This document shows positions 2,702-46,020 of a stretch of 64,000 bases of DNA, one piece after another. The stretch spans positions 1,054,001 to 1,118,000 of the forward strand of contig KE546973.1 in NCBI GenBank assembly GCA_000442125.1, given 5' to 3'. Position numbers and translations under genes: made by a program. The DNA comes from Opeltia flavorubescens. Taxonomy: Eukaryota > Ascomycota > Lecanoromycetes > Teloschistales > Teloschistaceae. The stretch's first letter is position 1. Each line of letters opens with the position of its first letter. The notes under the pieces were generated by a model. That model saw only the letters and a program-made list of their open reading frames with translations, was not told the DNA's origin and searched no databases.

Positions 2702-3196
2702 TTATATATATATTGGAAAACGTCCCTTATCGGCTTCCCGACCCGAAATAAATATAAACTTTATCGGTTGGTATCGAATAACCGTAGTTATAAATCCGGT
2801 TAACTCGATTCTAGAGGTTTCGACTATTAAAACTACTAGATTTTATATAGTTATAAGTTTATAGTATTATTATATATATAGTATAATAAAAAATATCTTA
2901 AATTATAAAGCGTATTAAGCGTATTTAAATATATTTTTTAGTTTTAAAATCCGATATTATTAACGCTGTTAGTATCGCTATAAAGTTTTCCTAATAGTTT
3001 TTCTATTTTATTTATTTTTTATATCTTCTTTTATAAGTTATATTTAAAAAATTTTTTATTTTAATACGTTTCGATTTAAATTAATCTAATTCTATTTATT
3101 TTCTTTTTATCGCGTATTAATATTATACCTCCTATTATATTATTATTACTATTTAAATATCTTCCTATCTCTTTTTAAAAATCTTTTTTTTTATTA

Positions 3197-3748
3197 CCGA
3201 TTTTATTATCCCTAGATCCCTTTACTATATTAATAGTATCGGTACAACATTATACTCGATATAAATACTTTAGATATTATTCTAATTTTAAAAAACTTTT
3301 ACTAGTATAAGGATTAAATAAATATTATACTACTTATAATATATATCGTAATAAGGTATAGTCGATTTATATTTCTAATAGTTATAGCTAACTTCCTAGG
3401 GGAGATAGACGCCTCTAGGAATCCTCGATATAAATATTTAGTCGAATCGAAATAAATTATTACTTTTAAAACGACCCCGTCTTTTTAACTCCTATCGCTC
3501 TTGCTTTTATAATATATAAGTACCGTATTAGTAGATTCGACTCTATAAATAACTATAAATAATTCCGCCACCGCGTTTATAGGCCGAATATCTAATATAT
3601 TATATACCCTCTTCACCCGGAAATATTAATCGAAACCTAAAAATAATAGTTTCTATTTTACTATAAGAGTTATACTAGGCGTATTAGGAATAATTTTCGG
3701 TAGAAATAGCTAGAAGCTATAATTTATAACTTTTCTTTTCTTCTATAA
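3197..3748 (+). pseudogene. Zinc-finger-like frame upstream of Helitron Rep (N-terminal exon or separate small gene)
   Basis: A coherent reading frame precedes the Rep/helicase frame but lies in a different phase. Its first third shows paired Tyr residues with spacing Y-x2-Y, then a second Y-x2-Y after about 25 residues. TGY to TAY change by RIP would turn Cys into Tyr, so this may be a former C-x2-C...C-x2-C zinc finger; that step is inference. The rest is basic and Gln-rich (former CAR codons now TAR). The phase change against Rep occurs near 3740 in both Helitron copies at the same spacing, so it is not a private indel of one copy. It could be a separate ORF overlapping the Rep start, or an upstream exon joined by an intron I cannot place. 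The start codon is not identified. Confidence 0.45.
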
Positions 3749-6700
3749 ACGATAATCCTAACTTTAATTCTAATTCTAATTCTATTATTAATAATAACTC
3801 CGATTCGGACTTTAAAGCTGATTTTTTCTATAATAATATTTTTAAAAGCCTTACTCCGTCTAAAACGAATTCTAGTATACTCCCGAATCGACTACTAGCG
3901 CCTTTTAATTCCTTTAACCGCCTTTAACCTATTATTTCGAAGTTTAATTTAAATTTTATAAAAAAGGAGAAATTATTTCGGGAAAGACCTAGCTAGCCGG
4001 ATCTACTATATTATTTAACCGGGCTTTACTATAGTTAATAAGGCCGTCGAAGAAATAGGTTACCGTTTATACCGGCTGAATATAAATCGGAATTATATAA
4101 AATAACTTTTTACTATATCGGCCTCTATAGCGTATCGAATCGTACCGGGGTGTAAATATACCTTACCTACCTCTATTACCACGCGAAATACTAGGTCGAA
4201 GAATACATTTCGGGTATATCGGCTTCCGCTACGGAATACGAGCTTTATTATAAAAAAAGCCAGCTGGTCGAATCGATAGATCCCCTTCTAAAAACGCCCT
4301 ATAGTAGAGAGTTTTAAAAAAATATTCGGCGCTATAATAATACTTTTATATTCACCTCGACTAAGTATTAAAGTAATTACCGTCGTATCCCTAACCGCGG
4401 ACCGCAACCCTTTATTATATACGGCGAAATATATTATATCTAGGGACCTCTCGAACCTACTAATAAGGAATCCCTTTTATTTACGTAATATTTTTTTCTA
4501 AATCCTAATAAAGCTACCAATACCCGTATTAGAAACGATTATAAAATATATTCTAGCAGCTACCTAAATCGAGGGATTTTATAGGATCTAGACTATATAC
4601 TTCGGGAAATCAACCCCTATATTAACTACTATCGGACGGCTCGGGAAGTCCTTTTTTAGAAAAGAAATAATCCGAATCCAAAGCTACTCTCGCTACTAAT
4701 TAATATATAAATACAGCTAATTATTAAAAAAGGGGCTAATAAATATCGCGAGAATCTACTAGTTCAGGGTAATAATAAGATTTAAATATTAATCTCTAAT
4801 AAATACTCTAAGAGCTATTTCCGTAATATCTATCTATTTCAAAAAGAAAGTTAAGACCTTAATAAATATAGTTTCTAGAGAATTAATTCGAATTACCCTA
4901 CCTATATACTATTATATTACGTCCTCCTTTTTACGAAAAGTAAACGAGGATTTAATTAAAATCGTTTTATTAGCGGACGGAATAGCGGGCGTCGTATTTA
5001 CTAGTATAATTACTATCTATTTCATTTATATTAGCGTACTATAGAATTCAATCCGATTCTTTATAATATAAAACTTTTCTAGCAGTATATTTACGATACG
5101 TGGGCAGTTTATAATTAAAATACGCTTAATTTTATCCGCCGGAATTAAAATAAAATTCGAGTTGAATTATATTAAGGGGTTTAGGATTATTTAATAGCGG
5201 ATAATCTAGATCCTATAGATAACCGCCCGGGTTTTAGATATTAAATAATTTTACCTTCTTTATATATATATAGTAACCGTTTTATATATATAGCGATAAT
5301 AGATTCGTACGCTATTATACGGCGCTACAGTCGATTTTCCCTATTTTTAATAATAACTACTAATCCGAAATAGCCTAAAATTATTAAAACGCTAGAACTG
5401 AATTAATAAGCTACTAATCGCCTAGATATCGTTATAAGGGTTTTTAATATCCGGAAGAAAGCGTTATTAAAAGAGGTTAAAGCCGGTATTTTTAGAAAAT
5501 TTTTAAAGCGGGTATAAATAATCGAATACTAGAAATAAAAGCTTCTTTATATATATCTACTAATTTTTATCGATTATTAAGGTACGTTTCGGAATATAAA
5601 TATAGTCGATTTAATAATTACTACCGAGTTATTACCACCCGAATTAAATCCGGATAGTTTTTTAACCAGAATTATATAGGAATTTATAATATATAAACTA
5701 TACGGTAATATATATCCCGATACTTCCTATATAATCGAATCTTCTAATAATAGTCCGAAACGATATTTAAAGGGGTTTCCTAAACTATTTTAAAAAAAAA
5801 CCAATCTTTCTAGCGACGGTTACCCTAGTTACCGGCGACCTAACAATAGTTATACCTAAATAAAAGGGAGTAATCCTTTTATTTTTAATAATCGGTAGAT
5901 TGTACTTTATAATCCGTATTTTAGTAGTCGATATAATTATTATATTAATATTAAAATTTATTCCGGTTTTAAGGCGGTTTAATATATTTATAAATATATT
6001 TATAAAAGTTACGATCGTAGAACTATTACGATAACTAGGGAAAATATTAAAAATAATAAAATAGTATAGTATTTAAATAGTAGGGTTATTAGTTTATTAT
6101 AAATATACTAGAAGCTCTTTAAATATTAAAACTATTAGAAATAGCCGCTAGTTTAAAAACTTTATCTTTACTTTAAAGGAGTATATTAGGTCGTATTTCC
6201 GGATAGAATTCTAAACGATACGCTTACTCGATAAGCGGAAAATATAATTTTAACCTTAATAAGATAGTTTAAATATAATACTAAAAACGAAGATAGCTAT
6301 AATATCCTATATTAGGACTTTCCGGAGTACTATATTTAAGAAAGAGATTATTAGAAACCCTGGGAAAAAGGTATTTTAATCGGTCGTATATATTATTATA
6401 ACCCTATTATAAAAAAACGGTATTATTTTTTACGGTTACTTCTAGAAGTTTTTAATATAAAATTATTTACTTATCTTCGGACGTATAAAAGGGTTATATA
6501 TAATACCTTTTAAATAGTATATTTTACCCGCGGTCTAATATCCGATAATTTTAAATAAAAGTATTATTTTAAAGAATTATCTATATTTATAGAGGGGAAA
6601 TAGCTACAGAGCCTTTTTATTACGGCGTATACCTATAATACGTTAAATTATCTACAACGGCTCTAGAAATAATTTCGGGAATTAATTTATAATAACCTAA

Positions 6701-8337
6701 AGTTTTAATTCGATATGGGGCGTTTTAAAACCCTAAAAGGCCTTAAATATCTTAAATAAAATTACGAGCTATATTAAATATAATGCCTTTTTATAGATTA
6801 AAATAAAACTCTAAAATAGTTCCGGTTATAGCTTTACGAGTACGATTAAGGCTGAACTATTAGGAATCTATTAGTAGCGGCGGAATTAAATTATAATACC
6901 GACGAATAATAACAGCTGCTTAAAAAGAATCGGCTGAAGCTAAATAATAAATAACGAGCGGTATATAATCGTATTATTTCGAAGCCTATAAATAGAGATC
7001 AACTTTTTTTTCTATAAAAACCGGCCGGTACAAGTAAAACCTTCCTATATTAGACCCTATATTACTATTTTCGTACTTATAGCGAAGTCGTTATCTATAT
7101 TATATCCTCCGGTATCGCTATATTACTATTCTCTAATAACTAAATATTATACTCTCGCTTTAAAATTCCTATCGATATTCTAGATAATTCCTTATATTTT
7201 ATTAGCTGAAATTTAAAACTTAATAGTCTACTTTAATAAATATTAATAATTATTTAAAATAAGGTTTCGATATAATATAAATATTATTTTATAACGGTTA
7301 ACCGTATATTACACAATATATATAATAAAAATATTCCCTTTAAAAGGAAGCGGGTAATTTTTAATAGCGATTTTACGCAAATTCTTCTAATTATACCTAC
7401 TAGTTCTAGAGGTGTTATTATTAAAATAAATATCTAGTATTATTTCTTTTAATATCGCTTTAAATAATTATATCTAATTTAAAATATATAGGTCTAATAT
7501 AATACTACTAATACTCGATTTATATAATAGTTAAAGAAAATATCCTATAACCGGAATCTCTATAATACGATTTAGTTTTTAAATAAGATTAACTAGATAA
7601 TAAATCTTTAAAACCTTTAGGAATATATCTTCCTAATTTAGGAGCTTTATAACCTATAATATAATCCGAACTTTTTCTAAAGCCGCGCGATCTTAATAAT
7701 ATATAATAAAATAATCGATTTTTTAAACTCTAAACTATTATAAAATTTATATAGGGAATTAAAGGTTTATTATAGTTTCAACTCCTATAATTAAAATAAA
7801 CGCCGGCCTAGAATTAAAGAGGTACTATTAAATTAACTAAATACCTTTAAATCTAAAAGTTTAGCGCCTTTAAGGCTAGAGTTAAAGGTTAATACCCCGA
7901 TAATATTAATTTATAATACTTATCCTAAAAACGGTATAATAAATAGGACTCGTTTAATAATAATATATCTTAGTTATAATATTATTAAAAAACGAATCGT
8001 TAGCGGTACTTTTTATAGTTAAAAACGATTAATTTACTATATCCTATTAATAACTTTAGAAAGCGAGTTAGTAGGTATCGTAGTAAAATAAAAGTAATTT
8101 CTAATTCAGTTTATATTTACTATAACCGTTAATAAATTGTAAGAGTAAATTTTAACCCGTATCAACTTGGATTTTCGGATACCTACTTTTTTATATAAGT
8201 AACTATATATAGCTTTATCTCGAGTTACGGATATTACAGATATATTAATATACTTTACTGCGGGTTCTAAAGAATTTATAAAGAATCTAGTATAATTAAA
8301 GATATTAATAAGACGATCAACTTAAACGAAATTATAA
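3745..8337 (+). pseudogene. Helitron Rep/helicase (RepHel), RIP-inactivated
   Basis: This is the transposase of the Helitron: an HUH-type replication initiator fused to a PIF1-family helicase. The frame spans 1531 codons, with the same phase at four checked landmarks and no net indel, a normal length for the family. Reading TAR as former Gln/Trp, the order is: Asn/Ser/Asp-rich N-terminus; Helitron-like N domain around residues 220-460 (GEIYYI, then LYYVLLF near 385); Rep motif TTNPK near 540; the HUH region near 600-614, where both His have become Tyr ahead of LLIFIDY; the catalytic-Tyr region KYIYKSYDR near 750; Walker A PAGTSKTFLY near 1092; Walker B region near 1170; and C-terminal helicase motif LYIALSRVTD near 1487. 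The proposed start is ATA, presumably mutated ATG. Very many internal stops make it inactive. Confidence 0.88.
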
Positions 8338-8424
8338 TTTCTATATTTTTATATAAAAATCAAGTTATAGATTCTATAAAAAACCAAAATTGCCGTAATA
8401 AAAAAATTGAATCTAATCCTAAAA

Positions 8425-8550
8425 GTTACTACCGAAGCAGCCCGAAACGAATACTAATATCTACTACTGAAGCAGCCCGAAAAAAATCCTAATATCTATT
8501 ACCGAAGCAGCCCGAAACTAATCCTAATATTTCTACTACCGAAGCAGCAA
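8425..8550 (+). repeat. Four-copy tandem repeat in the Helitron convergent intergenic region
   Basis: A unit of about 35-38 bp containing the core ACCGAAGCAGCCCGAAA recurs four times between the end of the Rep/helicase frame (8337) and the end of the antisense gene (8602). The last unit is partial. Helitron copy 2 has the corresponding, more mutated array near 45846-45970, so it belongs to the element rather than to the locus. It sits where two convergent transcripts would end. Its role is unknown. Confidence 0.8.
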
Positions 8551-8601
8551 TCTTTAAGTTAAAAAAAAAATTACTACTAGTGCAGCCGAATCGCCGTATT
8601 A

Positions 8602-10316
8602 TTAAATATTAAAAAATTCCTCCGATTTAATAATTATATTAATACTCTTGTTATTTTTTAAAATATAATTATCGTAATTAAATCCCTTTCTAATAATATC
8701 TCGAAATATTTTATCTCCGGAATTAGCTTCTACTAACAACTTCTGCAAGGCAACTCGATTCTATATCTATTTTAATTTTTTTTCGGACTAGGCGACCGAA
8801 TCGGTTCCGAGATTTAAGCTATATAGCAGATTCGTATTATATAAAGGAGGCGCGACTGTTTTAGTTAACTACTACTAGATTCTTTATAAAGAAATAATTA
8901 CCGTTTATATTTCTACCGGTTCTAATATTTCTACTATAATATACCCCGGTTAAACCGGATTCATATTTTTTTACGCGACGTTCCGTATCCGAATTAATTC
9001 TAGTTAGAATTCGTTTCTTAGTAGATATAGATACTACCTATTTCGCCTTCGCTGCCGCTTTTTTCGTTATAGCCCTCTTTTATTCACGTTTCTTGAATTT
9101 CGCCTAATCGCGGGATATTGAATACGCTTTAAAAAATACTAAATCTATTACTACCGTATAAGCTTTCTCGCTATATTCTTTTAAAATCTATTAATAACGA
9201 AATAAATAACCAGAATTAAACGGTATACGGAAGCCGTAATACAACGCTAACCCCTAGTAATAGTAATTCCCGTAGGAACCACCTAAGTCTCCTTCTACTA
9301 CGATATAGTCCGAATACAAACCGTTTCCCTTTCAACAGTATTCATACGGATTTTTAGCGATTTCTCCTATAATTTAAATCAATACAGATTCTTAATTTAA
9401 AGTTTTTTTATTATTAAAATACTAAAACTTATTAATTTTAAAGTTTTAAAGCGAGAGGATATATTTAATTCGACTAGTATTAATTAGATTCATCTAGTAA
9501 TTAATACAATCTAACCCGTTAATCGCATCTTAAATCAGCAGTATCGACTATTATATCAGACGGACTATATATATTACGACTAAATCAGGGAGAGTCGCGT
9601 CGTAAAATAGACCGGCTATTAGCTATAACAATTTAAATTTAGTAAATAAATACGGGGGATTAAAAAATTACTAATACGATAAGAAAATATTACTAGCTAA
9701 TTCAGAAACCAATACTACTTACCTACTCGCGTAGAGCTATAGGAATAATAAGCTACTAAATACCAATAAATATACCAGAATCGCTACCGGAGGATTTATC
9801 TTTATTATTATTACTTACTTCTACTACCGGCGCCCCAATTCTAGTCTTATCCTCTATATTAATAATATCCGCACCTACGGCCGTATTATCTTAATTCTAA
9901 TTATCCAAAGGGTTCTATAATAACCCGATATATTCCTAAATTANTAGTAATACACCTTTAATTTCATCGATCTCTACTTTAAAATCCTTAGTATTCGTTT
10001 TAATTATATTCGACGATTATATCAGCTTCTTAATACGGCCTTTTATTTCTTAATATCCTATATTAATCAAATCGATATACTTTAGTAACTATTTCTAATT
10101 CTCGAGAATTTTTAAAACCGCGGTATAATTTCGATTAATAGCAGCCTTTATCTTTTATAACTCCGTACGCTGCTATTTCAACTTTTTAGATAGTTTAGGT
10201 ACGAATTCGGATTTATTTCTAGTAGTTTCGGTAATAAACTACGTAGCCGATTCTATTACGATATCAATATTAGTTACTTTAAGGCCTATATCAGGTAGTA
10301 TATTATCGGATACTAT
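8602..10316 (-). pseudogene. Helitron antisense gene, about 570 codons, function unknown
   Basis: A long protein-like frame runs opposite to Rep/helicase in the 3' third of the Helitron. From an ATA (presumed former ATG) at 10316, it encodes: a charged, Lys/Gln-rich helical or coiled-coil stretch (first ~120 residues); an acidic Asn/Asp/Ser linker; a hydrophobic segment around LIAGLFYDATLPDLVVIYIV; a Tyr/Gly-rich part with DYIVVEGDLGGSYG and YSEKAYTVVIDLVFF; a Lys/Arg/Ala-rich stretch; and a basic, Gln-rich C-terminus ending in IKSEEFFNI before a stop at 8604. Stops are almost all TAA/TAG at expected Gln/Trp sites plus TGA. Compared with copy 2, this copy has one extra base in an A/T run near 8771-8784 and four extra bases near 9713-9730; removing five bases leaves exactly 570 codons. 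There is one ambiguous base (n) at 9944. I do not recognise the family. Confidence 0.7.
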
Positions 10317-10492
10317 ATTACTAAAAGTGATTTAAAAGTTACGAGGGTTATAAAAAAATACGAGTATTATAAGTTAAATTAAGATCTACAAGCCCAGCAA
10401 AATAAGCTACGCGGTATAATACGAGCTTAAAAAAAAAAAAAAAGGAAGAAAGAAATAGATCTATAATATAGAAAGCTCGGGTAGACTAGTTC

Positions 10493-10526
10493 CGCGCTAG
10501 TATTAGCTATATTTACTAGCCGCGCG
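10493..10526. repeat. Short GC-rich inverted repeat upstream of the antisense gene
   Basis: CGCGCTAGTA and TACTAGCCGCGCG face each other across about 11 bp, an imperfect stem with a small bulge. It lies about 180 bp upstream of the proposed start of the antisense gene and 280 bp from the Helitron 3' end. It is retained in copy 2 (47901-47934), although the surroundings are much more eroded there. It could be a promoter-proximal site, a Rep-binding site, or merely a sequence poor in CpA and so protected from RIP. Confidence 0.5.
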
Positions 10527-10780
10527 CAGTAAATAAGTAAATAAATATCCCAGTAAATAAAAATAAAAATTTTAATATAAACCGATTGATTATAAATAAT
10601 TTAATTTTATTAATAAAATATTATTTTTATCGTTTAATATAATTAATTAAATTAATTCTTTTAAAGAAACAATTAAAAAGTATCTAAAAAAATAGGTATT
10701 AAAAGATTCGATTTAAATCTATACTAGTAAAATTCTCTTTTAAATCTATTTTTTCTAATATAGAATTTAAATAAACCGGA

Positions 10781-10804
10781 ATCGGAACGATAGCCCGATA
10801 CTAG
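10781..10804 (+). other. Helitron 3' terminus: hairpin plus CTAG
   Basis: The stem ATCGG/CCGAT with a nine-base loop is followed by A and CTAG, the CTRR end typical of Helitrons. The next base is T, completing the A/T insertion site. Copy 2 ends the same way (48188-48211), with CTAA as its last four bases. Confidence 0.85.
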
Positions 10805-13177
10805 TTATTAAACGTTAAATTATTCTATTAATTTTTAAAATTAAAGGTTATAGGTATTATTTAAATAATAAAAAAAATTTATTATATAATTAAAATAGTT
10901 AAATATATTATTATTATTTATATAAACTATTCCGCTATAGTTAATATTTTATATTAGATTAACCTAAATATAGTATCTATAAAAAAGCTTAACCTCTATT
11001 TAATATAAGTTTTCGAATACTTTTAATATTTTAAATTTAATATTTATTATAAACCTAGAATTATATATACTATTCTAGATATATTATTAAGCTTTACTAG
11101 TTATAAATACTATTTAAAAATAGATAAATTACTAAATATAGATACCTTTATAATATATTATTTTCTAATAAATCTAATAGAAGTATTAGTTAAACTCCGT
11201 TAATAATTAATTAATAAGTATATTAAAAAAAAACCGCTAGATTAAAATTAAAAAATCCGTTAAAATTAATATAAAACTAGATAATAATACCGCTAAATTA
11301 CCGTATTATATTATTAACGGGCTATTCTACTTTAATAATAATAAATAAGGTTTATACTTAATAATACCTATAAATATAAAAAAAAAAAATTCTAGCTAGT
11401 ATATAATAAAATAAGCTATTTCGGTTATATATATATATATATATAAATATTTAATAAAAGGCCTCTATATATATAATATATTAATAAAATTATATTAATT
11501 TATCCGCTACTACCTATAGTATTAAATTAATTAAATATCTCGCTACCGTTTATATAAAATTTTATAGCTAGTATTTAGCCCGATAAAACTATTTTATATA
11601 TTTATTATCGATTTTATTTTTACTCTATTAAAATTGTATAAAAAATACGATTATTATATATTAATAATAGATAAACTTATTAAAATAATTATTTATATAT
11701 CTAGAAAAACTATTTAAAACGATAAATAATAGGTTAAATAACTATTAAATAAACTAATAAAACCAAATTAAAGCGTATTATAGGCGGTAATTTTAAATTA
11801 TAATAAAAAGTTTATTAATTAGCTATAATATTAGATATTTAAAATATTAAAAATAGATTTATAAAATTTTACTATTTAGTATTTATAAATTAATAATATA
11901 TTAGAATAATTTAATTAAACTACTAAAATTATTATATACTATTATATTACTATATTAAACGACTTTAAATTATAATTTATTATTTTTTTATAAATATTAA
12001 TAGCTTTTAATAACTTTATAAACTATAGCTTTATATTTAAAATATTTAATTAAATATTATTCGAATTTAAAACTTATAAAGTATTAGATTTTTTATACCT
12101 ATTAAATTCTAATTAAATTATTTAATTAGAAAATATACTAGATTCTAAAATTCTTATCGACGCTCCCGTTAAAAAACTAGCTGCTTTTCTAGCTATAATA
12201 TAAATAGTTTATTACTATAATCCGATTATTCCGGAAATTAATAAATCTATAAATATATTTATAATATAGATTATTAAAATATTAATAACTATAAAAAAAT
12301 ACCGGCCTATATATATTAATATTAAAAATACTATTACCTTTACTATAATAAAAATAAAAAAATACTATAATATATACTATTAACTAGTTTACTTTAAAAT
12401 TAGCGATTTTATAAAAATATATTTAAATTAAAACTATAATATATTAAAACTTATTTTTAAAAAGATAAAATAATAGCTAATAGGCCTTTTTAAAATTATT
12501 AAATATATTAAATTATTAATTTATTATTTAAAACTATTACCTATTTTTAAATATATAATATTATATTAATAATATATTTAAAGCCTATTACTAACTCTAG
12601 TAATAATCTCTACTAACGTTACTATATACCTATATCCCCCGTTATTATTAATAGTAATAAAAAATTTAAAATTAATTAAATCTTTTATAAACGTTATATT
12701 AATAAAAATAAAGGTTTTTTTATTTAATATTTTATTAATTAGGTTAATTATAAATCTAATAATAATTAGTAGATATTTAAATACCGTTTAAATAATATTA
12801 AAATATTAATAAAAGAATATAAACGCTATTTTAATTTAAAATCGGCTTTAAACTATAATAAAACTATTAATAATATTAATACTAATATTAAATAGTAAAA
12901 ATATATTAAAAAGCCGCTTATTAATAAAACAGAGTTTATTATTAAAAGTTAATAGTTTTATTTAATATCGGTATCTATTACGGTTATATTATATTAATAG
13001 AAGGCTAATAAAATAAATAGAATTAAATAGCTATTATAATCTAAAGGAGGCCTTTTAAATAAATTTACCTAGTTAAATTTAGCGCCTTTTAGCGCCTATA
13101 TTTATTTAGTTATAAATTCTATAGATAAATAGTTTTTTACCTTTAATATAATACTATTATTTTATATCTACTATATA
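10805..13177 (+). mobile_element. Gypsy-A copy 1, 3' segment with 3' LTR
   Basis: This continues the element of 1-2701 after the Helitron. The order matches the minus-strand copy read in reverse: end of RNase H, integrase region about 11400-12200, a chromodomain-like tail near 12650-12800, and the 3' LTR at 12976-13177. The segment length (2.37 kb) agrees with the equivalent interval of the intact-length copy (35792 down to 33436). It is broken, with dozens of RIP-type stops. RIP load is visibly lighter than in Gypsy-B copy 1. Confidence 0.85.
12976..13177 (+). repeat. Gypsy-A 3' LTR (202 bp), copy 1
   Basis: It aligns over its whole length with the LTRs at 33436-33637 and 40420-40624 in reverse orientation. 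It starts TATTACGG (TG mutated to TA) and contains the short internal duplication around GCGCCTTTTAGCGCC. The exact 3' edge could extend 1-2 bases. No target duplication can be tested because the 5' end is outside the window. Confidence 0.8.
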
Positions 13178-13180
13178 ATA

Positions 13181-13571
13181 CTAGCACTAAGCTACCGTCC
13201 CAACGGGATTTTGCTGCTGGTAGCTAGCAGCTGGTAGGGCTGAGTAGTAGAGCTGGCAGCCAATTCCTAGCCAGTTTAATACGCCTAAAACTTCTATACG
13301 ATATAGCGCTACTAGTTTTTATTCGATTTTAAAAATTTTTACGCTATTAGAATACGCTTATTAAGCGCTTTAAAATAAACTACTATCTATACTACTATAC
13401 ACGAAAGTAGTAAAGTTATTAAACTATAAAAAAACCAGCTGTTTTAATAGTCGAAATACGAAATTACGCTAGGCCCGAAATATATCTACCTTTATTTAAT
13501 ACCAACCGATAAGGTTTATATTTATTTCGGGTCGGGAAGTCGATAAAAAATATTTTCCAATATATATATAA
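13181..13571 (-). mobile_element. Non-autonomous Helitron, subfamily 1 (391 bp)
   Basis: Read on the minus strand, it begins TTATATATATATTGG after an A and ends CTAG before a T. The first ~76 bases match the 5' end of the autonomous Helitron at 2702, and a weaker match continues to about its base 165. The 3' end differs: stem CATTGGG / loop ACGGTGG / stem CCCAGTG in the unmutated relative. It has no coding capacity. Related copies lie at 50613-51019 and 62401-62808. It inserted 3 bp past the Gypsy-A LTR. Confidence 0.85.
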
Positions 13572-14726: not shown

Positions 14727-17700
14727 ATTTTAATTATTTTTTAATTATAAGGGATTATCTAGTAAAATAATAAAAAGAGCTTAAAAAAAAACCTCGCGTA
14801 TAGATTTTAGAATAATTAAAAGTTTTATAAAAAAATTAAATTATAAAATTTAATAATAATAAGTAAAATCCATTTAAAAATTCGAGCAGAAATAATAAAA
14901 ATAACCTAATAAACAAATTTTTATCTAATAAAAAAAATATTAAAATAATAAATAATTAAATAAATAGAACTTCTAACAAAATAATTTTATTAAAGAAAAG
15001 AGTTAAAGTATAAATATTATAAATTTAATTTTATATTTAAAAATTAGAATAGAAAAATAAATTATTAAAAATTTATTTATAAACTATTAAATTAAAGATT
15101 AGTATAGATTATTAAAAATAATATAGTAATAATTATTACTAATCTTTTTTAAATATTAGAAAAAAGGTTAATAAATTAAAATTATTTAATAAATAGCTAT
15201 ATATTAAATATAAAAATTTAATATTATAGTTTATTAATTATAAAAAATATATTAATATTTTATAAAAGGATTTTTTTATAAAAAAAAAAATTTATTAAAT
15301 AATTTTTAAATTTAATAGTAAATTTAAAATTTAATAATATAATTATATTAAATTATTAAACGCTAAAAATAAATTATTTATTAAAAATAATTTTATTAAA
15401 TATTATAAAAATATATTTAATAATTTATTAATTTAAAATATATAAATAAAAATCTAGTTAAAATTTATAAAATAATTAAAATTATTAATAATATTTATAT
15501 TTAATTAGTATTTATAATAGTAATATAATAATTTAAATTATTTAATAAATAAATTTATAAAAAATATTAATTTATAAATTAAAATAAATAGCTAAATTAA
15601 TAATAAAATATTATAAAATTAAAAAAAATTAAAAACTTATTAAATTCTTTTAATATAAAATATTATATTAAAATAATATTTATAAAAAATAAATATTATA
15701 TTTAAATTAAAATATAAAATATTTAATAAAAATATTTAATCCTTTAAATAAAATAGTTAAAGGAAAAGTTTATAAAAAAAAAAAAGTTTAAATTATAATA
15801 AAAATAATAATTAAAATTTAATTAAATATTTAAAAAAATATAAAAAAATAATATTTAAAATAAAATATTAGATTTATAAAATTAAAAAATATAAAATAAA
15901 TAATTTTATATATTTTAAATTTATAGAAAAGGAAAAAAAATATAATAAAAGAAAAAAAATATAAAAAAAAAATAAATTCTAATATATATTATTATTATAT
16001 AAAAATTATTTATAATTAAACGGTAAATATTTATTATAATAGTTTTTTTATATATTAATATTTTTATAAAATTTTAAATAGTTTATTATTTAATTAATTC
16101 TAATATAAAAAAAAAATTATTTTATAAATATTAATTAAAAAATTTTTTTTATTTAAAAATTAAATAACTTTAAAATAAATTAAAATAATAGATAATTATT
16201 AAATTTTATTTTATAATTTCTATTTATTAAATATAAACTTAATAAATAATTATAAAATAAAAAAATATTAAAATAATAATTATTATATAATAAATATATA
16301 TAAATATAATATAATTTTAAATTATTTTTAATTAATAAAAATAAATTTTAATATTTATTAATAAAATTAAAAATAAATTTATAAAAATATTTTTATTATT
16401 AATAAAATAGTATTAAACTAGATTAATATTTATATTATAAAAGAATTTATTAAATTAATAATATTAATAATAAATTAAAAGAATAATATATAAATTATAT
16501 ACTTTTATTAATTAATACTTAATTTAAAAATAGAAATAATTATATTAAAAATAGCGAGATATTATATAATATAAGTTAAAACTTTTAAAATTCTATTAAT
16601 ATTATAATATTTAGTAAAATTCTTTTTAAAAAAATTTATTAATAGTTTAAATATATATAATTAAATAAAATATATTATAAAATTAAAATTAAATAAATAG
16701 CTAAAAATAAATTTAATTTATAATATATTATTAGATAAATTAATAATAATTTAAAATTATTTTATAAATAAATAAATTAAAAGCTAGATAAAGCTTTTAA
16801 ATAATTTAATTAAAATATTAATATTATTTATAAAAAAAATAAATAGTAGTTTATAATTATATATAAATTTTAAAAGTTTTAATAAAATTATTATTAAAAA
16901 TAAATATTTTTTATTTTTATTATTAAAAATTTTAATAGATTTATATATATAAAATAATTTATTAAAATTAATATTTATAATATTTATTATTATATTTAAA
17001 TTAAATAAAAAAATAAATAAAAAATTATATTTTAAATTTATTATAAATAGTTTAAATATTAAATTATATTATTTAATTTTATAAATATTTTTATTATATT
17101 TTAATTATATATTAATAGAATATTATAATTTTATTTAAATATATTTTATATAATTTATTTAAATAATATATTAATTTATTTTAAAAATAAAAAAAAGTAT
17201 TAAAAATATATATATATAATTATTAAAGCTTTATTAAAATATTATATATATATAAAATTATTAAAATATATTTTTAATTATATTAAAATTGAATTTTTAA
17301 ATTTTATAATAAATTAATAAAAAATTTATATAAAATTTTTAAAAATTAAAATTATAAATAAATAGCTAATATTAGAAAATATAAAAAATATTTTAATATT
17401 TTTAAAATTTATAGAATTTTATAAATAATTTATAAAAGATTTTTTATAAATAATTATTCTTTTAACTAATTTAATATAAAATATAAAAAAAATTTAAATT
17501 AAATTTAAATTTATTTAATTTAAAAAAATATAAAAAATTTTTAAAAAATTATAAAAACTTTTTACTTTAATTTTTATTTTATAATATTATAATATAAATA
17601 TTAAAATTTATATAAAAACGGATATATTAAAATATAAAATAAAAAAAATTTTTAATTAAAAATTAAAAAAAAGTTTATATTAATATTTAATAGTTTTTTT

Positions 17701-20700
17701 TAATTATAAATTTAAAAATATAAAATTCTATTAAAATATATATAATAAAAAATTTAATATTATAATATTAGTTTTTAAAAATTAACGGTATTATTTATAA
17801 AAAATTAAAAAAATAATTTATATAATTATAAATTATAATAATTTTAAATATTTTATAATTATAAAAAAATTTATTATAAAATAAATATAATAAATAAAAA
17901 AATTAATTATATTTAATTTTTATATAAAATATTAAAAAAATTTATTAAACTTAATTAATATATTATTTAAAAGGTCTAATATTATAAAATTTAATAATAA
18001 TAAAAATAATAATAATTACTTTTTATCTATTTTATAAAATAAATTTTATAATAAAAATTATTAATTTAAATTATAAAAAAAAAAAATATTTATAATAATT
18101 AAATTTATAATAATTTTAATAATATAATTAAATAATATAATTATTATAAATATTTTTATTATTTATAAAAATAAAAAAAAATTTAAAAAAATTTATAAAT
18201 TTTTAAATTTTATAAACTTTTAATTTTTAATTTAATAAATTATTAAATTAAAAATTTTTTTTTTAAATATATAATTATTTATAGTAGAGTAGCTTTTTAA
18301 ACTTTAATAAAAAAACGCTTTTATTATAAAAAAAAAAAAATATTAAAGGTTTATTATTAATTAAAAAAAATTTTTAAAATAAAAAATTAAAAAAAATAAA
18401 TTATTTTAAAAAGATCTAATAATTTATATATTTAATAATCTAGTAATAAAAAAAAGTTTTTTATATAAATTATAATAATTTTAAAATAAATTATTTTATA
18501 AAAAAAAAATAAAAGATTTAATTTATAAAAAATATTATTAATTAAATATAATTAAAAAAATAAAAAATTATTATAAAATATATTTTAATTATTAAAAAGT
18601 ATAAATCTATTATTATATATTTTATAATTAATTAAAATTAATTCTATTAAAAGGTATAAAACCGTTTTATATAATAATAATAAATTTTATTATTAATTTA
18701 TAATTTATAACTAACTTTTATATAAAAAGAATTTATAATTTAATTTTTATATTAATAAATAAATTAATTAAATATATAATTTATAGTTTTATTATTAATA
18801 ATATTAATATAAAAAATTTATAGAATTATTATAATATAAATTTATTAAATATTATAAAATTATATAAAAAATTATTAATAATAAAAGGTCGTTTTTTATA
18901 AATAAATTTTAAAATATTTTTTATTATTATTAAAATATTAAAAAAAAATTTAATATTATAATTTATTTTTAAATTAATAATTAAATAAAATATTAAAATT
19001 AAATTTTAAAATATTATTTATAAATTTATTATAATTATAAATAAAATAATTAATTAAAATTATTATTTTTAATAGAATTTATTTATAATAATAATATATA
19101 TATAAATATTAATAAACTATTAAATAAATTAATTAAAAAATATATTATTATTTTAAAAATTAAATTTAAAAATATAATTTTTAAAAAAAAACGCTTTTAA
19201 TATTTAAAAAAATAAATTAATTAAAAAATTTAAAAAAATATTAAATTAAATTTTATAAAAAAATTTTTAAATAATAAAAAAAATATTATAATATTTATTA
19301 TAAAACTATAAATTTTTAAAAAAATAATAAAATATTATTATAAAATATTAATATTTATATTTTAAAATTTAAAAAAAAATTAAATTATAAATAATTAAAG
19401 CTTTTAAAAGTTTTAAAAAAAATTAATAAATAAATTTATTTTTTTAAATTATTTAAATAATATAAAAAAATTTATTTTATATTTTATATTAATTTATTTA
19501 AATTATAATATTTTTATAATAGAAATTTTAAATTTTAACCTATTTTAATAAAAGATAAAAAAGAATAAAAAATAAAATAGGTATTTAATAAATATATAAT
19601 TAAAAATAAATTTTAATATTTAATTTATTAAATTAATATTATATTTTTTAAAAATTTTTAAAAATTAATTAATAATTTAAATAATATAAAAGAATTTATT
19701 AAAAATTTTAAATAAATAAAATTAAAATAAATATATTAAAAAAAATAAAAACTAGAATAAAAAATAGATTTAAAGATAAAAAAAAAAAAAATTATATAAA
19801 ATTTATTAATTATTTAAAAAATTATTATTAGGAATTTATATATAAATTAAAGAATTTATATTATTATATTAGTTTAAATAATTATTATTTTTATAAATTA
19901 GTCTATAATATACCCGTATTTTTAAATAAAACTAGTAATTATTATATTTAAAAATAAATTATTAGTAAAAGTTTTAAATAAATAATTAAAAAAATAATTA
20001 TTAATATATATTTTTTTAATAATTTATTAAATATTATTTATTATATTTTATAATAAATTAAAAGTTTTTTTTATTATAAAAATAAAAAATTTAATTATAT
20101 TTATTATTATTAAAATAATAATATTAATAAACCCGTATTTTATAAAAAGTTTTATTTTAAATTTCTAAAAATATTATTATTAAAAAATAAAAATAATTTT
20201 AAAATTTATTTTTAAATAAAAATATTAATAAAAATTTTAAAATATATATTATTTTTTTTTAAAAATAAATATTTTATTTATATTAATAATTAATAAAAAA
20301 ATAGTAATTATATTTAATAATTTTTTTTATAAATTTATAATAAATATATATAAAACTTATTATAAAATATTTAATATATTATATATATTAAATTAAATTT
20401 TTATTAATAAAAAAAAATTATATTAATATTTAATTTAAAAAAATTTATAAATTTAAATAATTATTTAAAAATATTATTAAAATTATAAATTATAGAATTA
20501 TAATTTAAATATTTAAAAAATCTATTTTTTATATATTTTTAAATTATAGCTTTTTTTTATAGTTTTTTTTAAATAAAAGGATTATAATAAAAATTATATA
20601 AAAAGTTAAAAAAAATTAATTTTAAATTTATTTATTTATTAAATTAACTAGAATTTATAAAATTAAATAAAAATTTTAAAAAAATAAAAGAAATTTATAA

Positions 20701-21667
20701 TTTTAATACTATAATTAAATAAATAAATTATAATAATAATTAAGATTTATATATATATAATAAACTATAATTTTAAATTTAAAATAAATTTAAAATAAAT
20801 AAAAAATTTATAATTTAATAAAAATTAAAAATTTAAAAAAAAATATAATTATTTAAATATTTTAAAAAATATTTATTAAAGAATATTATAAAAATAAAAA
20901 AAAATTTAATAAATAATAATTAAATAAAAGAATAATTATTTATTTTTTTATTATATTTATTATTTATTAAAGAATATAATTTTAAAAAAAATTCTAATTT
21001 ATTTTATATTTATTATTATATATTTTTTAAAAATAAATTAAAATTAAAAATTAAACTTTAAACGATTTTATATAATAAAAAATAGTTTAATATTATTAAA
21101 ATAAATTTAAAATATTTTATAATTATATAATAAATAAAATAATATTTTAAAAAAAAAATTATATAATAAATATACTATTTATTTATAAATTTAATATTTA
21201 AAAATAATTTAATATAATTAAAAATCGAAGTTTATAAATTCCGTTTTTTAAAAATTTTTTAAAAAAATTTTATATTATTTTAAATTATTTTATAATAAAT
21301 AAAAAAATAAAATTTTAATATATTTATCTATAAATTTTATTTTTTAAATTTTATAAAATAATATTAAATAAATATTATAAATAAAAAGCTTTTAATTTAT
21401 AAATATTTAAATAAAATTAAAATAAATAATTTAATTTATTTAAATTAATTAAATAAATTAAAAGGATAATTATATTTTTAATTAAATTATAAAATATTTA
21501 GATTTTATAATTATATATAAAATCCGTTTATTTATAATTTATAAAATTAACTTTTATAAATTTTAATATAGGCGTATATCAGCTAGTAAAAGATAAAAAT
21601 ATATTATATAAATTTATTATTTATTAATAGAATTTATAGGATTAAATTTAATTAAAAAAAATATAAT

Positions 21668-22199: not shown

Positions 22200-25100
22200 T
22201 TATATATATATTAAAAAATATTTTTTATCGGTTTTCCGACCCCAAATAAATATAAATTTTATCGATTAGTATCGAATAACTATATTTATAAATCCGGTTA
22301 GTTTAATTTTAAAAATTTTAACTATTATAACTATTAAATTCTATATAATTATAAATTTATAGTATTATTATATATATAATAAAATAAAAAATATTTTGAA
22401 TTATAAAATATATTAAACGTATTTAAATATATTTTTTAATTATAAAATTCAATATTTTTAATATTATTAATATCGTTATAAAATTTTTTAATAATTTTTT
22501 TATTTTATTTATTTTTTATACCTTTTTTTATAAATTATATTTAAAAAAAAATTTATTTTAATATATTTTAATTTAAATTAATTTAATTTTATTTATTTTT
22601 TTTTTATCGCGTATTAATATTATACTTTTTATTATACTATTATTATTATTTATATATCTTTTTACTTTTTTTTAAGAATCTTTTTTTTTATTATTGATTT
22701 TATAATTTTTAAATCTATTTATTATATTAATAATATCGATATAATTTTATAATTAATATAAATACTTTAAATATTATTTTAATTTTAAAAAACTTTTACC
22801 GATATAAAAATTAAATAAATATTATACAATATATAATATATATTACAATAAAATAGAGTCGATTTATTTTTTTAATAGTTATAATTAATTTTTTAAAGAA
22901 AATAAATATTTTTAAAAAGTTTTAATATAAATATTTAATTAAATTAAAGTAAATTATTATTTTAAAAATAATTTTATTTTTTTAGTTTCTATTACTTTTA
23001 TTTTTATAATATATAGGTATTATATTAATAGATTCGACTTTATAAATAATTATAGGTATTTCCGCCGCTATATTTATAAATAGAATACCTAATATATTAT
23101 ACCCCTTTTTCCTCTAAAAATATTAATCGAAATTTAAAAATAAAAGTTTTTATTTTATCGCGAAAATTATACTAAACGTATTAAAAATAATTTTTAATAG
23201 AAATTACTAGAAATTATAATTTATAACCTTTTTTTATTTTTATAAATAATAATTTTAATTTTAATTTTAATTTTAATTTTATTATTAATAATAACTTTAA
23301 TTTAAATTTTAAATCTAATTTTTTTTATAATAATATTTTTAAAAGTTTTATTCCGTTTAAAATATATTCTAATATATTTTTAAATTAATTATTAATATTT
23401 TTTAATTTCTTTTACCGCTTTTAGTTTATTATTTTAAAATTTAATTTAAATTCTATAAAAAAAAAGGAATTATTTTAAAAAGAATTTAGTTAATTAGATT
23501 TATTATATTATTTAACCGGGTTTTATTAAAGTTAATAGAATTATTAAAAAAATAGATTACTATTTATACTAATTAAATATAAATCGGAATTAGATAAAAT
23601 AATTTTTTTTTATATTAATTCCTATAATATATTAAAATATACTAGAGTATAAATATATTTTACCTATTTTTATTACTAAATAAAATACTAGATTAAAAAA
23701 TATATTTTAGATATATTAACTCTTATTATAAAATACGAGCTTTATTATAAAAAAAGCTAGCTAGTTAAATTAATAGAATTTTTTTTAAAAATACTCTAAC
23801 TTTTAAAAAAAAATTTTATTAAATAAATACTTTAAAATAAAAAGTTTTAAAAAAATATTTAATATTATAATAATATTTTTTTATTTACTTTAATTGAATA
23901 TATAAAAAATTATTATTATATTTCTAATCGCGGACTATAATCCTTTATTATATATAACGAAATTTATTATATCTAAAAATTTTTTAAACCTATTAATAAA
24001 GAATTCCTTTTATTTATATAATATTTTTTTTTAAATTCTATAAAAGCTATTAATACCCGTATTAAAAGTACTTATAAAATATATTTTAAAAATTATATAA
24101 ATCGAGGGATTCTATAAAACTTAAATTATATATTTTAAAAAATTAATTTTTATATTAACTATTACCGGACGGCTTAAAAAAAATTTTTTAAAAAAAAATT
24201 TTAAATTAAAAGCTACTTTTATTATTAATTAATTTATAAATATAGCTAATTTAAAAAAAAAAGCCGATAAATATTATAAAAATCTACTAGTTCGAAATAA
24301 CTTTAAAATTTAAATATTAATCTTTAATAAATACTTTAAAAGTTATTTCCGCGATATTTATCTATTTTAAAAAAAAGGTTAAAATTTTAATAAATATAGT
24401 TTTTAAAGAATTAATTCGAATTATTCTATTTATATATTCTTATATTATATTCTCCTTTTTATAAAAAATAAATAAAAATTTAATTAAAATTATTATATTA
24501 ATAGATAAAATATAAAATATTATATTTACTAATAAAATTATAATTTCTTTTATTTATATTAGCGTATTATAAAATTTAATTTAATTTTTTATTATATAAA
24601 ATTTATTTAATAATATATTTATAATATATAAATAGGTTATTATTAAAATATATTCGATTTTATTCGTTAGAATTAAAATAAAATTTAGACTAAATTATAT
24701 TAAAAAGTATAAAATTATTTAATAATAGATAATTTAAATTTTATAAATAACTATTTAAATTTTAAATATTAAATAATTTTATTTTTTTTAAATATATTTA
24801 GTAACCGTTTTATATATATAATAATAATAGATTTATATACTATTATATAATATTCTAATTAACTTTTACTATTTTTAATAATAATTATTATTTTAAATTA
24901 GCTTAAAATTATTAAAACGCTAAAATTAAATTAATAAACTATTAATCGCTCGAATAATATTATAAAACTTTTTTATATTTAAAAGAAAACGTTATTAAAA
25001 AAAATTAAAGTTAATATTTTTAAAAATTTTTAAAACGGGTATAAACGATTAAATATTAAAAATAAAAGCTTTTTTATATATATTTACTAATTTTAATTAA

Positions 25101-27877
25101 TTATTAAAAGATATTATAAAATATAAATATAGTCGATTTAATAATTACTATTAAATTACTATTATTTAAATCGAATCCGATTAGTTTTTTAACTAGAATT
25201 ATATAGAAATCTATAATATATAATCTATATAGTAATATATATTTTAATATTTTCTATATAATTAAATCCTTTAATAGCGGTTTAAAATAATATTTAAAAA
25301 AGTTTTTTAAACTATTATAAAAAAAAAACTAATTTTTTTAATAATAATTACTTTAATTACCGGCGATTTAACAATAATTATATTTAAATAAAAAAGAATA
25401 ATTTTTTTATTTTTAATAATTAGTAAATTATATTTTATAATTTATATTTTAAAGATTAATATAACTATTATATTAATATTAAAGTTTATTTTAATTTTAA
25501 AACGATTAAATATATTTATAAATATATTTATAAAAATTATAATTATAAAACTATTATAATAATTAAAAAAAATATTAAAAATAATAAAGTAGCGTAATAT
25601 TTAAATAATAAAGTTATCGGTTTATTATAAATATACTAGAAGTTTTTTAAATAATAAAACTATTAAAAATAGTTACTAGTTTAAAAATTCTATTTTTATT
25701 TTAAAAAAATATTTTAGATTATATTTCTAAGTAAAATTTTAAATAATACGTTTATTTAATAAATAAAAAATATAATTTTAATTTTAATAGAATAGTTTAA
25801 ATATAATATTAAATATAAAAATAGCTATATTATTTTATATTAAAACTCTCTAGAGTACTATATATAAAAAAGGAATTATTAAAAATTTTAAAAAAAAAGT
25901 ATTTTAATTAATTATATATATTATTATAATTCTATTATAAAGAAATAGTATTATTTTTCGCGGTTACTTTTAGAAACTTTTAGTATAAAATCGTTTATTT
26001 ATTTTTAAATATATAAAAAGATTATATATAATATCTTTTAAATAATATATTTTACCCGCGGTTTAATATCCGATAATTTTAAATAAAAGTATTATTTTAA
26101 AAAATTATCCGTTTTTATAAAAGGGAAATAACTATAAGGCCTTTTTATTATAATATATATTTAAAATATATTAAATTTCTTATAATAGTTTTAAAAATTA
26201 TTTTAAAAATTAATTTATAATAATTTAAAGTTTTAATTTATTATAAAATATTTTAAAATTTTAAAAAGCTTAAAATATTTTAAATAAAATTATAGATTAT
26301 ATTAAATTTAATACCTTTTTATAAATTAAAGTAAAACTCTAGATTATTTCTAACTATAGCCTTATAAATATAATTAAAGCTAAATTATTAGAAATCGTTT
26401 AATAATAGTAGAATTAAATTATAATATTAATAAATAATAATAATTATTTAAAAAAAACCGATTAAAACTAAATAATAAATAATAAATAATATATAATTAT
26501 ATTATTTCGAAGCTTATAAATAAAAATCGATTTTTTTTAAAAGTCGATTAATATAAATAAAACCTTTTTATATTAAACTTTATATTACTATTTTTATAAT
26601 TATAATAAAATTATTATTTATATTATATCCTTTAATATTATTATATTACTATTTTTTAATAGTTATATATTATATTTTTATTTTAAAATTTCTATCGATA
26701 TTTTAGATAATTTTTTATATTTTATTAACCGAAGTTCGGAATTTAATAATTTATTTTAATAAATATTAACTATTATTCAGAATAAAACTCCTATATAATA
26801 TATATTCTATTTTATAGCAGTCGATTGTATATTATATAATATATATAATAAAAATATTCCTTTTAAAAAGAAGCGGGTAATTTTTAATAGCGATTTTTTG
26901 TAAATTTTTTTAATTATATCTACTAGTTTTAAAAATACTATTATTAAAATAAATATCTAGTATTATTTTTTTTAATATTACTTTAAATAATTATATTTAA
27001 TTTAAAATATATAAGTTTTATATACTATTATTAATATTTAATTTATATAATAATTAAAGAAAATATTTTATAACCGAAATTTCTATAATAGAATTCGGTT
27101 TTTAAATAAAATTAACTAGATAATAAATTTTTAAAACTTTTAAAAATATATTTTTTTAATTTAAAAAATTTATAATTTATAATATAATTTATTTTTTTTC
27201 TAAAACCGCGTAATTTTAATAATATATAATAAAATAATCGATTTTTTAAATTTTAAACTATTATAAAATTTATATAAAAAATTAAAGGTTTATTATAATT
27301 TTATCTTTTATAATTAAAATAAACGCTGATTAAAAATTAAAAAAGTATTATTAAATTAGTTAAATACTTTTAAATTTAAAAATTTAGCGTCTTTAAAGCT
27401 AAAATTAAAAATTAATATTTTAATAATATTAATTTATAATATTTATTCTAAAAATAATATAATAAATAAAATTTATTTAATAACAATATATTTTAATTAT
27501 AATATTATTAAAAAGGAAATTATTAACGGTATTTTTTATAATTAAAATAATTTATTTATTATATTTTATTAATAATTTTAAAAAACGAATTAGTAAATAT
27601 TATAATAAAATAAAAATAATTTCTAATTTAATTTATTATTACTATAACTATTAATATATTATCAAAATAAATTTTAATTTATATTAACCTAGATTTTTAA
27701 ATATTTATTTTTTTATATAAATAACTATATATATATTTATTTCGAGTTACAAATATTATAAATATATTAATATATTTTACTATAAGTTTTATAAAATTTA
27801 TATAAAATCTAATATAATTAAAAATATTAATAAAGCGGCCGATTTAAATAAAATTATAATTATTATATTTTTATATA
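22200..27877 (+). mobile_element. Helitron copy 2, 5' part
   Basis: It is homologous to 2702-8370 throughout, begins with the same TTATATATATATT terminus after an A (22199), and carries the zinc-finger-like frame and Rep/helicase remnant. It is interrupted at 27877 by a Gypsy-B array whose 5-bp duplication ATATA lies at 27873-27877 and 45770-45774. The element resumes at 45770 and ends at 48211; without the insert it would be about 8.1 kb, like copy 1. It is clearly more eroded than copy 1. Confidence 0.9.
23242..27859 (+). pseudogene. Helitron RepHel remnant, copy 2
   Basis: This is the second copy of the Rep/helicase frame at 3745-8337, aligned from the Asn-rich N-terminus (ATA, presumed former ATG, at 23242) to the C-terminal stop at 27857. 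It is about 25 bp longer than copy 1 because of a small insertion around 23790-23840, so its frame is shifted there. The Walker A region around 26540-26570 and the C-terminal helicase motif around 27725-27755 remain recognisable by alignment. It is heavily mutated and non-functional. The Gypsy-B array inserted 18 bp past its stop, so the coding region itself is not interrupted. Confidence 0.8.
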
Positions 27878-28090
27878 TATAAGGTCGCTAGATAAACAGC
27901 CTATAAACCTCGGGTTAATAAAACTATATAATAGAATATAAAAAACGTTTATCTAAATAATAATAAAATTAATTATTAAAAAATTAGTAATTTAAAATTT
28001 ATAAAATTTTTATTAAAAATAAACGCTATTTATATTAAATATAGCTCTATTTTTTATAAACTTTATATTTACTAGCCCTCCGGTTTTATA
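27878..28090 (-). repeat. Gypsy-B LTR, outer left of the array (213 bp)
   Basis: It matches the solo LTR at 59545-59757 in the same orientation, including the retained GGTCGCTAG start and CCTCCGG end. It is preceded by TSD ATATA (27873-27877). Confidence 0.9.
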
Positions 28091-31000
28091 ATTATATCCC
28101 TTTTAATTAGATTTAATTTTTTAAATTTTATTAGTAAATAATAGTTTATATAATATACTACTACTTTTTACTAGCCAGTATATAGCTATATTAGAATTTA
28201 TAAAAATTAATTTTATAAATTATAAATAAATAGACTTTATATATAATTATAAAATTTAAATATTTTATAATTTAGTTAAAAATATAATTATTTTTTTAAT
28301 TTATTTAATTAATTTTAATAAATTAAATTATTTATTTTAATTTTATTTAAATATTTATAAATTAAAAGCTTTTTATTTATAATATTTATTTAATATTATT
28401 TTATAAAGTTTTAAAAATTAAATTTATAAATAAGTAAATTAAAATTCTATTTTTTTATTTATTATAAAATAATTTAAAATAATATAAAATTCTTTTAAAA
28501 TTTTTTTAAAAAATATAATTTAAAAATTTTAACTTTTAATTATATTAAATTATTTTTAAATAATATTTTTATAAATAAATAATATTTTTATTATATAATT
28601 TTTTTTTAAAATAATATTTTATTTATTATATAGTAATAAAATATTTTAAATTTATTTTAATAATATTAAATTATTTTTTATTATATAAAATTATTTAAAA
28701 TTTAATTTTTAATTTTAATTTATTTTTAAAAAATCTATAATAGTAGATATAAAATAAGCTAGAATTTTTTTTAAAATTATATTTTTTAATAAGTTATAAT
28801 TATAAAAAAAAAATAAATAATTATTTTTTTATTTAATTATTATTTATTAAATTTTTTTTTATTTTTATAATATTTCTTTAATAAATATTTTTTAAAATAT
28901 TTTAATAATTATATTTTTTTTTAAATTTTTACTTTTTATTAAATTATAAATTTTTTATAATTTTTTTTTTATTTAATATTTAAAGTTATAGTTTATTATA
29001 TAAATATAATTTTTAATTATTATTATAATTTATTTATTAAATTATAATATTAAAATTATAAATTTTTTTTATTTTTTTAAAATTTTTATTTAATTTTATA
29101 AATTCTAATTAACTTAATAAATAAATAAATATAAAACTAATTTTTTTTAATTTTTTATATAATTTTTATTATAGATCTTTTATTTAAAAAAAATTATAAA
29201 AAAAAATTATAGTTTAAAAATATATAAAAAATAAATTTTTTAAATATTTAAATTATAATTCTATAATTTATAATTTTAATAATATTTTTAAATAATTATT
29301 AAAATTTATAAATTTTTTTAAATTAAATATTAATATAATTTTTTTTAATAAATAAAAATTTAATTAAATATATATAATATATTAAATACTTTATAATAAA
29401 TTTTATATATATTTATTATATATTTATAAAATAAACTATTAAATATAATTACTATTTTTTTATTAATTATTAATATAAATAGAATATTTATTTTTTAAAA
29501 AAATAATATATATTTAAAAATTTTTATTAATATTTTTATTTAAAAATAAATTTTAAAATTATTTTTATTTTTTAATAATAATATTTTTAAAAATATAAAA
29601 TAAAATTTTTTATAAAATATAAATTTATTAATATTATTATTTTAATAATAATAGATATAATTAAACTTTTTATTTTTATAATTAAAAAGATTTTTATTTT
29701 ATTATAAAATATAATAAATAATATTTAATAAATTATTATAAAAATATATATTAATAATAATTTTTTAAATTATTTATTTAAAATTTTTATTAATAATTTA
29801 TTTTTAAATATAATAATTAATAGTTTTATTTAAAAATATAAATATATTATAAATTAATTTATATAAATAATAAATATTTAAATTAATATAATAATATAAA
29901 TTTTTTAATTTTTATATAAATTTTTAATAATAATTTTTTAAATAATTAATAAATTTTATATAATCTACTTTTTTTTTTTTTTTTTTAGATATATTTTTTA
30001 TTCTAGCCTTTATTTTTTTTAATATATTTATCTTTAGCTTTATTTAATTAAAATTTTTAATAGATTTTTTTATATTATTTAAATTATTAATTAATTTTTA
30101 AAAATTTTTAAAAAATATAATATTAATTTAATAAATTAAATATTAAAGTTAATTTTTAATTATAAATTTATTAATTATTTATTTTATTTTTTATTCTTTT
30201 TTATCTTTTATTAAAATAGGCTAAAATTTAAAATTTTTATTATAAAAATACTATAATTTAAATAAATTAATATAAAATATAAAATAAATTTTTTTATATT
30301 ATTTAAATAATTTAAAAAAATAAATTTATTTATTAATTTTATTTAAAATTTTAAAAGATTTTAATTATTTATAATCTAGTTTTTTTTTAAATTTTAAAAT
30401 TTAAATATTAATATTTTATAATAATATTTTATTATTTTTTTAAAAATTTATAATTTTATTATAAATATTATAATATTTTATTTATTATTTAAAAATTTTT
30501 TTATAAAATTTAATTAAATATTTTTTTAAACTTTTTAATTAATTTATTTTTTTAGATATTAAAAGTACTTTTTTTTTAAAAATTATATTTTTAAATTAAA
30601 TTTTTAAAATAATAATATATTTTTTAAATAATTTATTTAATAATTTATTAATATTTATATTTATATTATTATTATATATAAATTTTATTAAAAATAATAA
30701 TTTTAATTAATTATTTTATTTATAATTATAATAAATTTATAAATAATATTTTAAATTTTAATTTTAATATTTTATTTAATTATTAATTTAAAAATAAAAT
30801 ATAATATTAAATTTTTTTTTAATATTTAAATAATAATAAAAAATATTTTAAAATTTATTTATAAAAAATAATTTTTTATTATTAATAATTTTTTATATAA
30901 TTTTATAATATTTAATAAATTTATATTATAATAGTTCTACGAATTTTTTTATATTAATATTTTTAATAATAAAAATATAAATTATATATTTAATTAATTT

Positions 31001-45769: not shown

Positions 45770-46020
45770 ATATAAGAATTAAGTTATAAATTCTATTAAA
45801 AATTAAAATTACTATAATAAAAAAATTAAATTTAATTTTAAAAATTACTATTAAAATAGTTTAAAATAAATACTAATATTTATTATCGAAGTAGCGCGAA
45901 ATTAATCCTAATATCTATTATTAAAATAGCCTAAAACTAATTCCAATATTTTTATTACTAAAGTAGTAATTTTTAAATTAAAAAAAAAATTATTAATAAT
46001 ATAACTAAATTACCGTATTA

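Follow-up and report, generated by a model that had tools for sequence, protein, structure and literature searches.

RPA-like companions of plant Helitrons bind single-stranded DNA and are thought to act beside RepHel in rolling-circle transposition. A companion gene of this RPA-like kind is known from plant Helitrons, and in the Fusarium oxysporum complex the Helitron FoHeli3 carries an extra ORF in the opposite orientation, upstream of the transposase gene, which is without known domains and is found only in Helitrons (PMC5148889). Helitron1 elements of Pezizales carry genes for TET/JBP dioxygenases, which are proposed to counter methylation (PMC12730594). HELPO1 of Pleurotus bears capA, capB and capC, in which known domains are absent, and capA and capC are called specific to P. 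ostreatus (PMC4289320). Among other extra ORFs in ascomycete Helitrons, a literature search of partial coverage, which took in few subscription papers, has returned only FoHeli3 and the TET/JBP genes as relevant.

The locus described here holds two Helitrons with an additional frame on the strand opposite to RepHel. A previous reading of this DNA, made from the letters alone (the sequence-only reading), had suggested that this frame may be an undescribed accessory gene or a captured host gene. The word "undescribed" is no longer apt, since a comparable extra ORF has already been reported in FoHeli3, though upstream there (PMC5148889).

Two Helitron copies in RIP-mutated DNA

The whole stretch of DNA analysed (64 kb, hereafter the window) is heavily mutated in the manner of RIP. 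In positions 3301–10320, the dinucleotides CpA, TpG and TpA stand at 0.21, 0.10 and 1.36 of expectation, respectively. The G+C content falls to 1.8–5.5% per kb in 15001–21000 and 28001–33000, which is extreme even among RIP-mutated DNA. The sole stop-free frame of at least 100 codons in the window is one of 102 codons at 37486–37794 on the minus strand.

Two related Helitrons, each of about 8.1 kb and both RIP-degraded, lie in the window on the plus strand. Copy 1 spans 2702–10804, with both ends read and with a preceding A and a following T that are shared with copy 2. Copy 2 is divided into a 5' part with RepHel (22200–27877; 77–78% identity to copy 1 by blastn, and matched to RepHel by tblastn) and a 3' part (45762–48211; 78% identity to copy 1 by blastn), with an insert of about 17.9 kb between them. 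This insert has weak matches of Gypsy type, under the Pfam cut-off, on the minus strand at 34027–34161 (SH3_Tf2-1, 1e-6) and at about 35716–36018 (RT_RNaseH_2, 0.003). The flanks of copy 1, 200–2600 on the plus strand and 10810–13300 on the minus strand, are coding-like in opposite orientations according to the frame classifier described below, and neither matches a Pfam family.

The RepHel gene of copy 1 lies in a single frame on the plus strand that extends from 3703 at least as far as 8202, with 100 in-frame stops in 1500 codons. A Pfam profile search recognises in it PIF1 (1.1e-31), Helitron_like_N (4.7e-27) and Pif1_2B_dom (3.1e-5), so that a Rep domain and a PIF1-type helicase lie in one frame, as is characteristic of the Helitron superfamily. 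The 3' end agrees with the canonical Helitron1 end, CTRR with insertion between A and T, as copy 1 ends in CTAG and copy 2 in CTAA, each followed by T. At the 3' terminus of copy 1 (10781–10804, plus strand), where canonical Helitron1 elements have a hairpin just before the end, a 5-bp stem with a 9-nt loop is followed by ACTAG before the T; the stem is identical in both copies, although 80 and 42 of 200 shuffles, respectively, fold as well or better. An A precedes the assumed 5' end in both copies, an observation on two copies in which the A might itself be part of the element. The exact 5' base, placed by the sequence common to the copies, may be a few bases off. The 5' end reads TT, against the canonical TC, in the four matched copies of this end. 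TC may be masked as TT by C-to-T mutation, but the copy at 51001–51019, which retains several CA and TG, also reads TT.

Further Helitron 5' ends are present on the minus strand at 13553–13571, 51001–51019 and about 62725–62809, of which the one within 50943–51020 shows 96% identity to copy 1 across 78 bp, again with several CA and TG retained. The Helitron 3' end is found, with up to three mismatches, only in copies 1 and 2 within the window. A 35-bp tandem repeat in 3.8 copies (8415–8548) separates the facing ends of RepHel and the antisense gene in copy 1, and it also occurs in a mutated form in copy 2.

The antisense frame and its coding character

Between RepHel and the 3' end, both Helitrons contain a decayed frame some 570 codons long on the minus strand, convergent to RepHel, where the sequence-only reading had correctly placed it. 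In copy 1, it falls into an N-terminal piece (9731–10316), a middle piece (8788–9725) and a C-terminal piece (8602–8783), the last with three stops in 60 codons including the final one. These three pieces are in three phases because, compared with copy 2, copy 1 has four extra bases near 9726–9731 and one near 8784; both insertions had been noticed from the sequence and are confirmed. The frame of copy 2 is continuous in one unbroken phase from 46302 to 47739 and is followed by a C-terminal piece at 46023–46297, beyond a one-base difference of its own near 46299 that the earlier reading had not recorded. The sole N of the window, at position 9944, falls in the antisense gene of copy 1.

The number of in-phase stops is low for the phase but is not by itself distinctive. 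Copy 1 has 38 stops in 567 codons against 56.7 in same-phase shuffles (2 of 1000 are as low), and copy 2 has 41 in 569 against 68.7 (0 of 1000). When the best of six frames is taken for each piece, 960 of 1000 shuffles for copy 1 and 198 of 1000 for copy 2 do equally well, and a comparison of stop density with other windows does not single out the antisense frame. The codon-aligned plus-strand frames contain 34 stops in copy 1 against 38 on the minus strand, and 57 in copy 2 against 41. A clearer difference is seen in 46302–47147 of copy 2, where the minus phase has 19 stops and the five other frames have 29–43. In this middle part of copy 2, all 19 stop codons coincide with stops of copy 1, as would be expected if the same codons had been mutated to saturation or if the source element had already been mutated. 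It had also been argued that the stops occupy sites at which RIP would have altered Gln or Trp codons; this carries no evidential value, as CpA-to-TpA mutation lets any TAA or TAG be read so.

The composition of the N-terminal piece is more informative. The first codon positions are 70% purine in copy 1 against 49–52% at the others, and 69% against 51% in copy 2 (p 2.8e-5 and 9.6e-5, uncorrected for frame choice), a bias beyond the reach of C-to-T and G-to-A changes. It is missing in the longer C-terminal and middle stretches (p 0.43 and 0.42). Period-3 composition is reached by none of 1000 shuffles for the N-terminal pieces of both copies, by 26 of 1000 for the C-terminal stretch of copy 1 and by 510 of 1000, which is not significant, for the middle of copy 2. 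Of five controls, three are without this signal (459, 398 and 181 of 500 shuffles) and two, the outer flanks, have it (11 and 10 of 500); these flanks may be other coding elements.

The phase has been assessed by a frame classifier trained only on random proteins of generic amino-acid use that were passed through simulated RIP, in five settings. Under all five settings, five of the six pieces have the expected phase at the top of its ranking, including both phase changes of copy 1; for the sixth, the C-terminal piece of copy 2, the call is weak, with the expected phase first once and second four times. The margins over the next frame are 10–28 and 11–17 units for the N-terminal pieces and 5–14 for the middle of copy 1, and they narrow to 1.7–6.5 in the C-terminal piece of copy 1 and to 0.7–7.7 in the middle of copy 2, two non-coding controls within the element giving 0.3–2.8. 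A joint phase score, computed in one further setting of the classifier, amounts to 35.6 in copy 1, where the highest shuffle gives 17.3, and to 21.8 in copy 2, where the highest gives 14.6, so that 0 of 500 shuffles reach it in either case; the any-phase score of 137 windows elsewhere in the 64 kb has its 95th percentile at 18.9. The two copies are related and therefore are not independent tests.

On RepHel, the classifier is correct for only 7–9 of 28 windows and favours the codon-aligned reverse frame by 14–23 units. Because it misreads the strand of RepHel, its strand call is unsafe alone, and the phase of the antisense frame is better supported than the strand. The minus strand is preferred on account of the purine-rich first positions, the fewer stops in copy 2 and the plus-strand readings, which, judged by eye, look poor in charged residues. 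The strand assignment is regarded as well supported. Models of codon usage and of purine/pyrimidine pattern that were trained on RepHel have been dropped, being too weak for frame calls even inside RepHel.

No codon constraint is seen between the two copies. Transversions counted by coordinate phase number 10, 14 and 12 in the bins 8600–10599, with no clear codon-position skew among these few events, and the phase changes of copy 1 fall inside the bins. The RepHel bins (3600–8099) are likewise without clear skew (43, 35 and 32).

Predicted protein and homology searches

The N-terminal piece had been described as coiled-coil-like, and the structure model agrees in predicting a long helix at residues 38–123, but its confidence is low (mean pLDDT 51); the helical N-terminus is established in part. 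The acidic linker proposed after it does have an excess of D/E, although a mild one (8 D/E against 4 K/R in 55 residues). The middle piece comprises, by composition, a core rich in glycine and aromatic residues followed by a basic region, which is clear, as had been claimed, in its 27 K/R against 6 D/E in 107 residues. RIP converts Glu codons to Lys and Asp codons to Asn, and part of this basic character may therefore be damage. The basic region, too, is established in part. The model of the C-terminal part has no fold (mean pLDDT 32).

A profile search, which had been proposed along with the frame, finds no accepted family in Pfam, NCBIfam or PHROGs for the minus-strand translation. In Pfam, three translated stretches match no family at E up to 10, and five re-cut pieces at E up to 0.1 yield none accepted and none named Tet_JBP; a match of the 60-residue tail to PF22530 at 0.007 is under the cut-off of that family and is taken as chance. 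The missing Pfam match is meaningful because the same search finds RepHel at 1e-31 despite the damage to this DNA, and the absence of known domains is well supported. In NCBIfam, all matches are under cut-off, the best being SMC_prok_A at 0.0015 for the N-terminal piece (16 bits against 729) and the others unrelated, and PHROGs gives sub-threshold matches only (best 0.039). The observation that the protein resembles none of the OTU-protease, RPA and endonuclease companions of other Helitrons holds in that none of these Pfam domains is matched. Identities as TET/JBP, OTU, RPA or endonuclease have been rejected for want of a Pfam match to any.

In PDB, a sequence search for which the query was the C-terminal stretch from copy 1 gives no match. 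Beyond the window, homologues of the antisense protein are absent from the viral contigs and from the bacterial and archaeal genomes searched, where a 97-residue core served as the query for the latter. These negatives say little because the sets are non-fungal, residues were put in for stops in several patterns, and RepHel, the control, is also without match in the viral set.

Origin and role of the gene

The frame is best explained, with about even confidence, as a genuine second gene of the Helitron family, most likely encoding an accessory protein that served the element itself. Such a gene would have lain on the strand opposite to RepHel, in the interval before the 3' end, until C-to-T mutation through RIP and small indels inactivated it together with all other parts of the Helitron. 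The position of the frame, its occurrence in both copies and its coding character are established. Its product might form oligomers through a long N-terminal coiled coil, from which a flexible linker would lead to a core of no recognised family, and a strongly basic C-terminal half could bind DNA or RNA. By analogy with the RPA-like companions of plants, the protein may assist RepHel during rolling-circle transposition. It appears probable that the gene belongs to the Helitron and was not captured recently, whereas nucleic-acid binding and a helper role, drawn from the anatomy of the predicted protein, are doubtful.

That there is no gene, the frame being a chance product of AT-rich, mutation-shaped DNA or the shadow of a plus-strand coding region, has a slight probability. 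The best-of-six stop counts are unremarkable, the codon-aligned plus frames of copy 1 have similar stops, and the classifier errs on the strand of RepHel, all of which speak for this reading; against it stand the joint phase score that no shuffle reaches in either copy, the purine-rich first codon positions of the N-terminal piece and the low stop count of the minus phase in 46302–47147 of copy 2. If a gene is accepted, it may instead be a host gene, or a fragment of one, captured by the Helitron and passively carried in both copies. Helitrons do capture genes (PMC6431247, PMC4289320), and the frame lies on the 3' side, where DNA is added in the end-bypass model (PMC5148889, PMC6431247); against this stand the length of the frame, which is unlike a short fragment, and the absence of an accepted Pfam match, which a host gene might show. 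An accessory gene is favoured over capture because the frame follows RepHel and precedes the 3' end in each of the two copies, with no obvious gap in length. Capture is rated unlikely.

A third alternative is that the protein did not help transposition but served against silencing or defence, as is proposed for the TET/JBP dioxygenases that some fungal Helitrons encode. Genes of this type occur in Helitron1 of Pezizales and are proposed to act against methylation (PMC12730594), and the heavy RIP in the window means that counter-defence would pay. Yet neither Tet_JBP nor another enzyme domain is accepted in the frame and the present copies are mutated to ruin. An anti-silencing protein is rated somewhat less likely again than capture.

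Returning to an accessory gene of the element, we consider it a tentative possibility that a Helitron-specific family without known fold, opposite RepHel in ascomycete Helitrons (the present element and perhaps FoHeli3), is conserved and takes a working part in the rolling-circle transposition of fungi, which current models leave out. Both copies here carry the gene in a dead form. If intact Helitrons of ascomycetes have relatives of it next to RepHel, kept by purifying selection, a second protein would be needed or profitable there; models of rolling-circle transposition would then leave out this protein, and a link would be made to the unexplained ORF of FoHeli3.

Compared with the systems introduced above, the present gene resembles the RPA-like companion of plants in that it would supply a second element protein besides RepHel, although it matches no RPA family. 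Like the TET/JBP genes (PMC12730594), it is a putative accessory gene in ascomycete Helitrons, but it has no Tet_JBP match. With capA, capB and capC of HELPO1 it shares a location in a Helitron and the lack of known domains, while the host of HELPO1 is a basidiomycete and that of the present element an ascomycete. The termini of FoHeli3–5 are TGCCT...CTCCTGT (PMC5148889), and those of the present element are TTATATATATATTGG...CTAG followed by T. Unlike the extra ORF of FoHeli3, which is upstream, the present gene is downstream of RepHel and convergent with it. Like that ORF, it stands in a fungal Helitron as a gene of its own, runs opposite to the transposase gene and is devoid of known domains.
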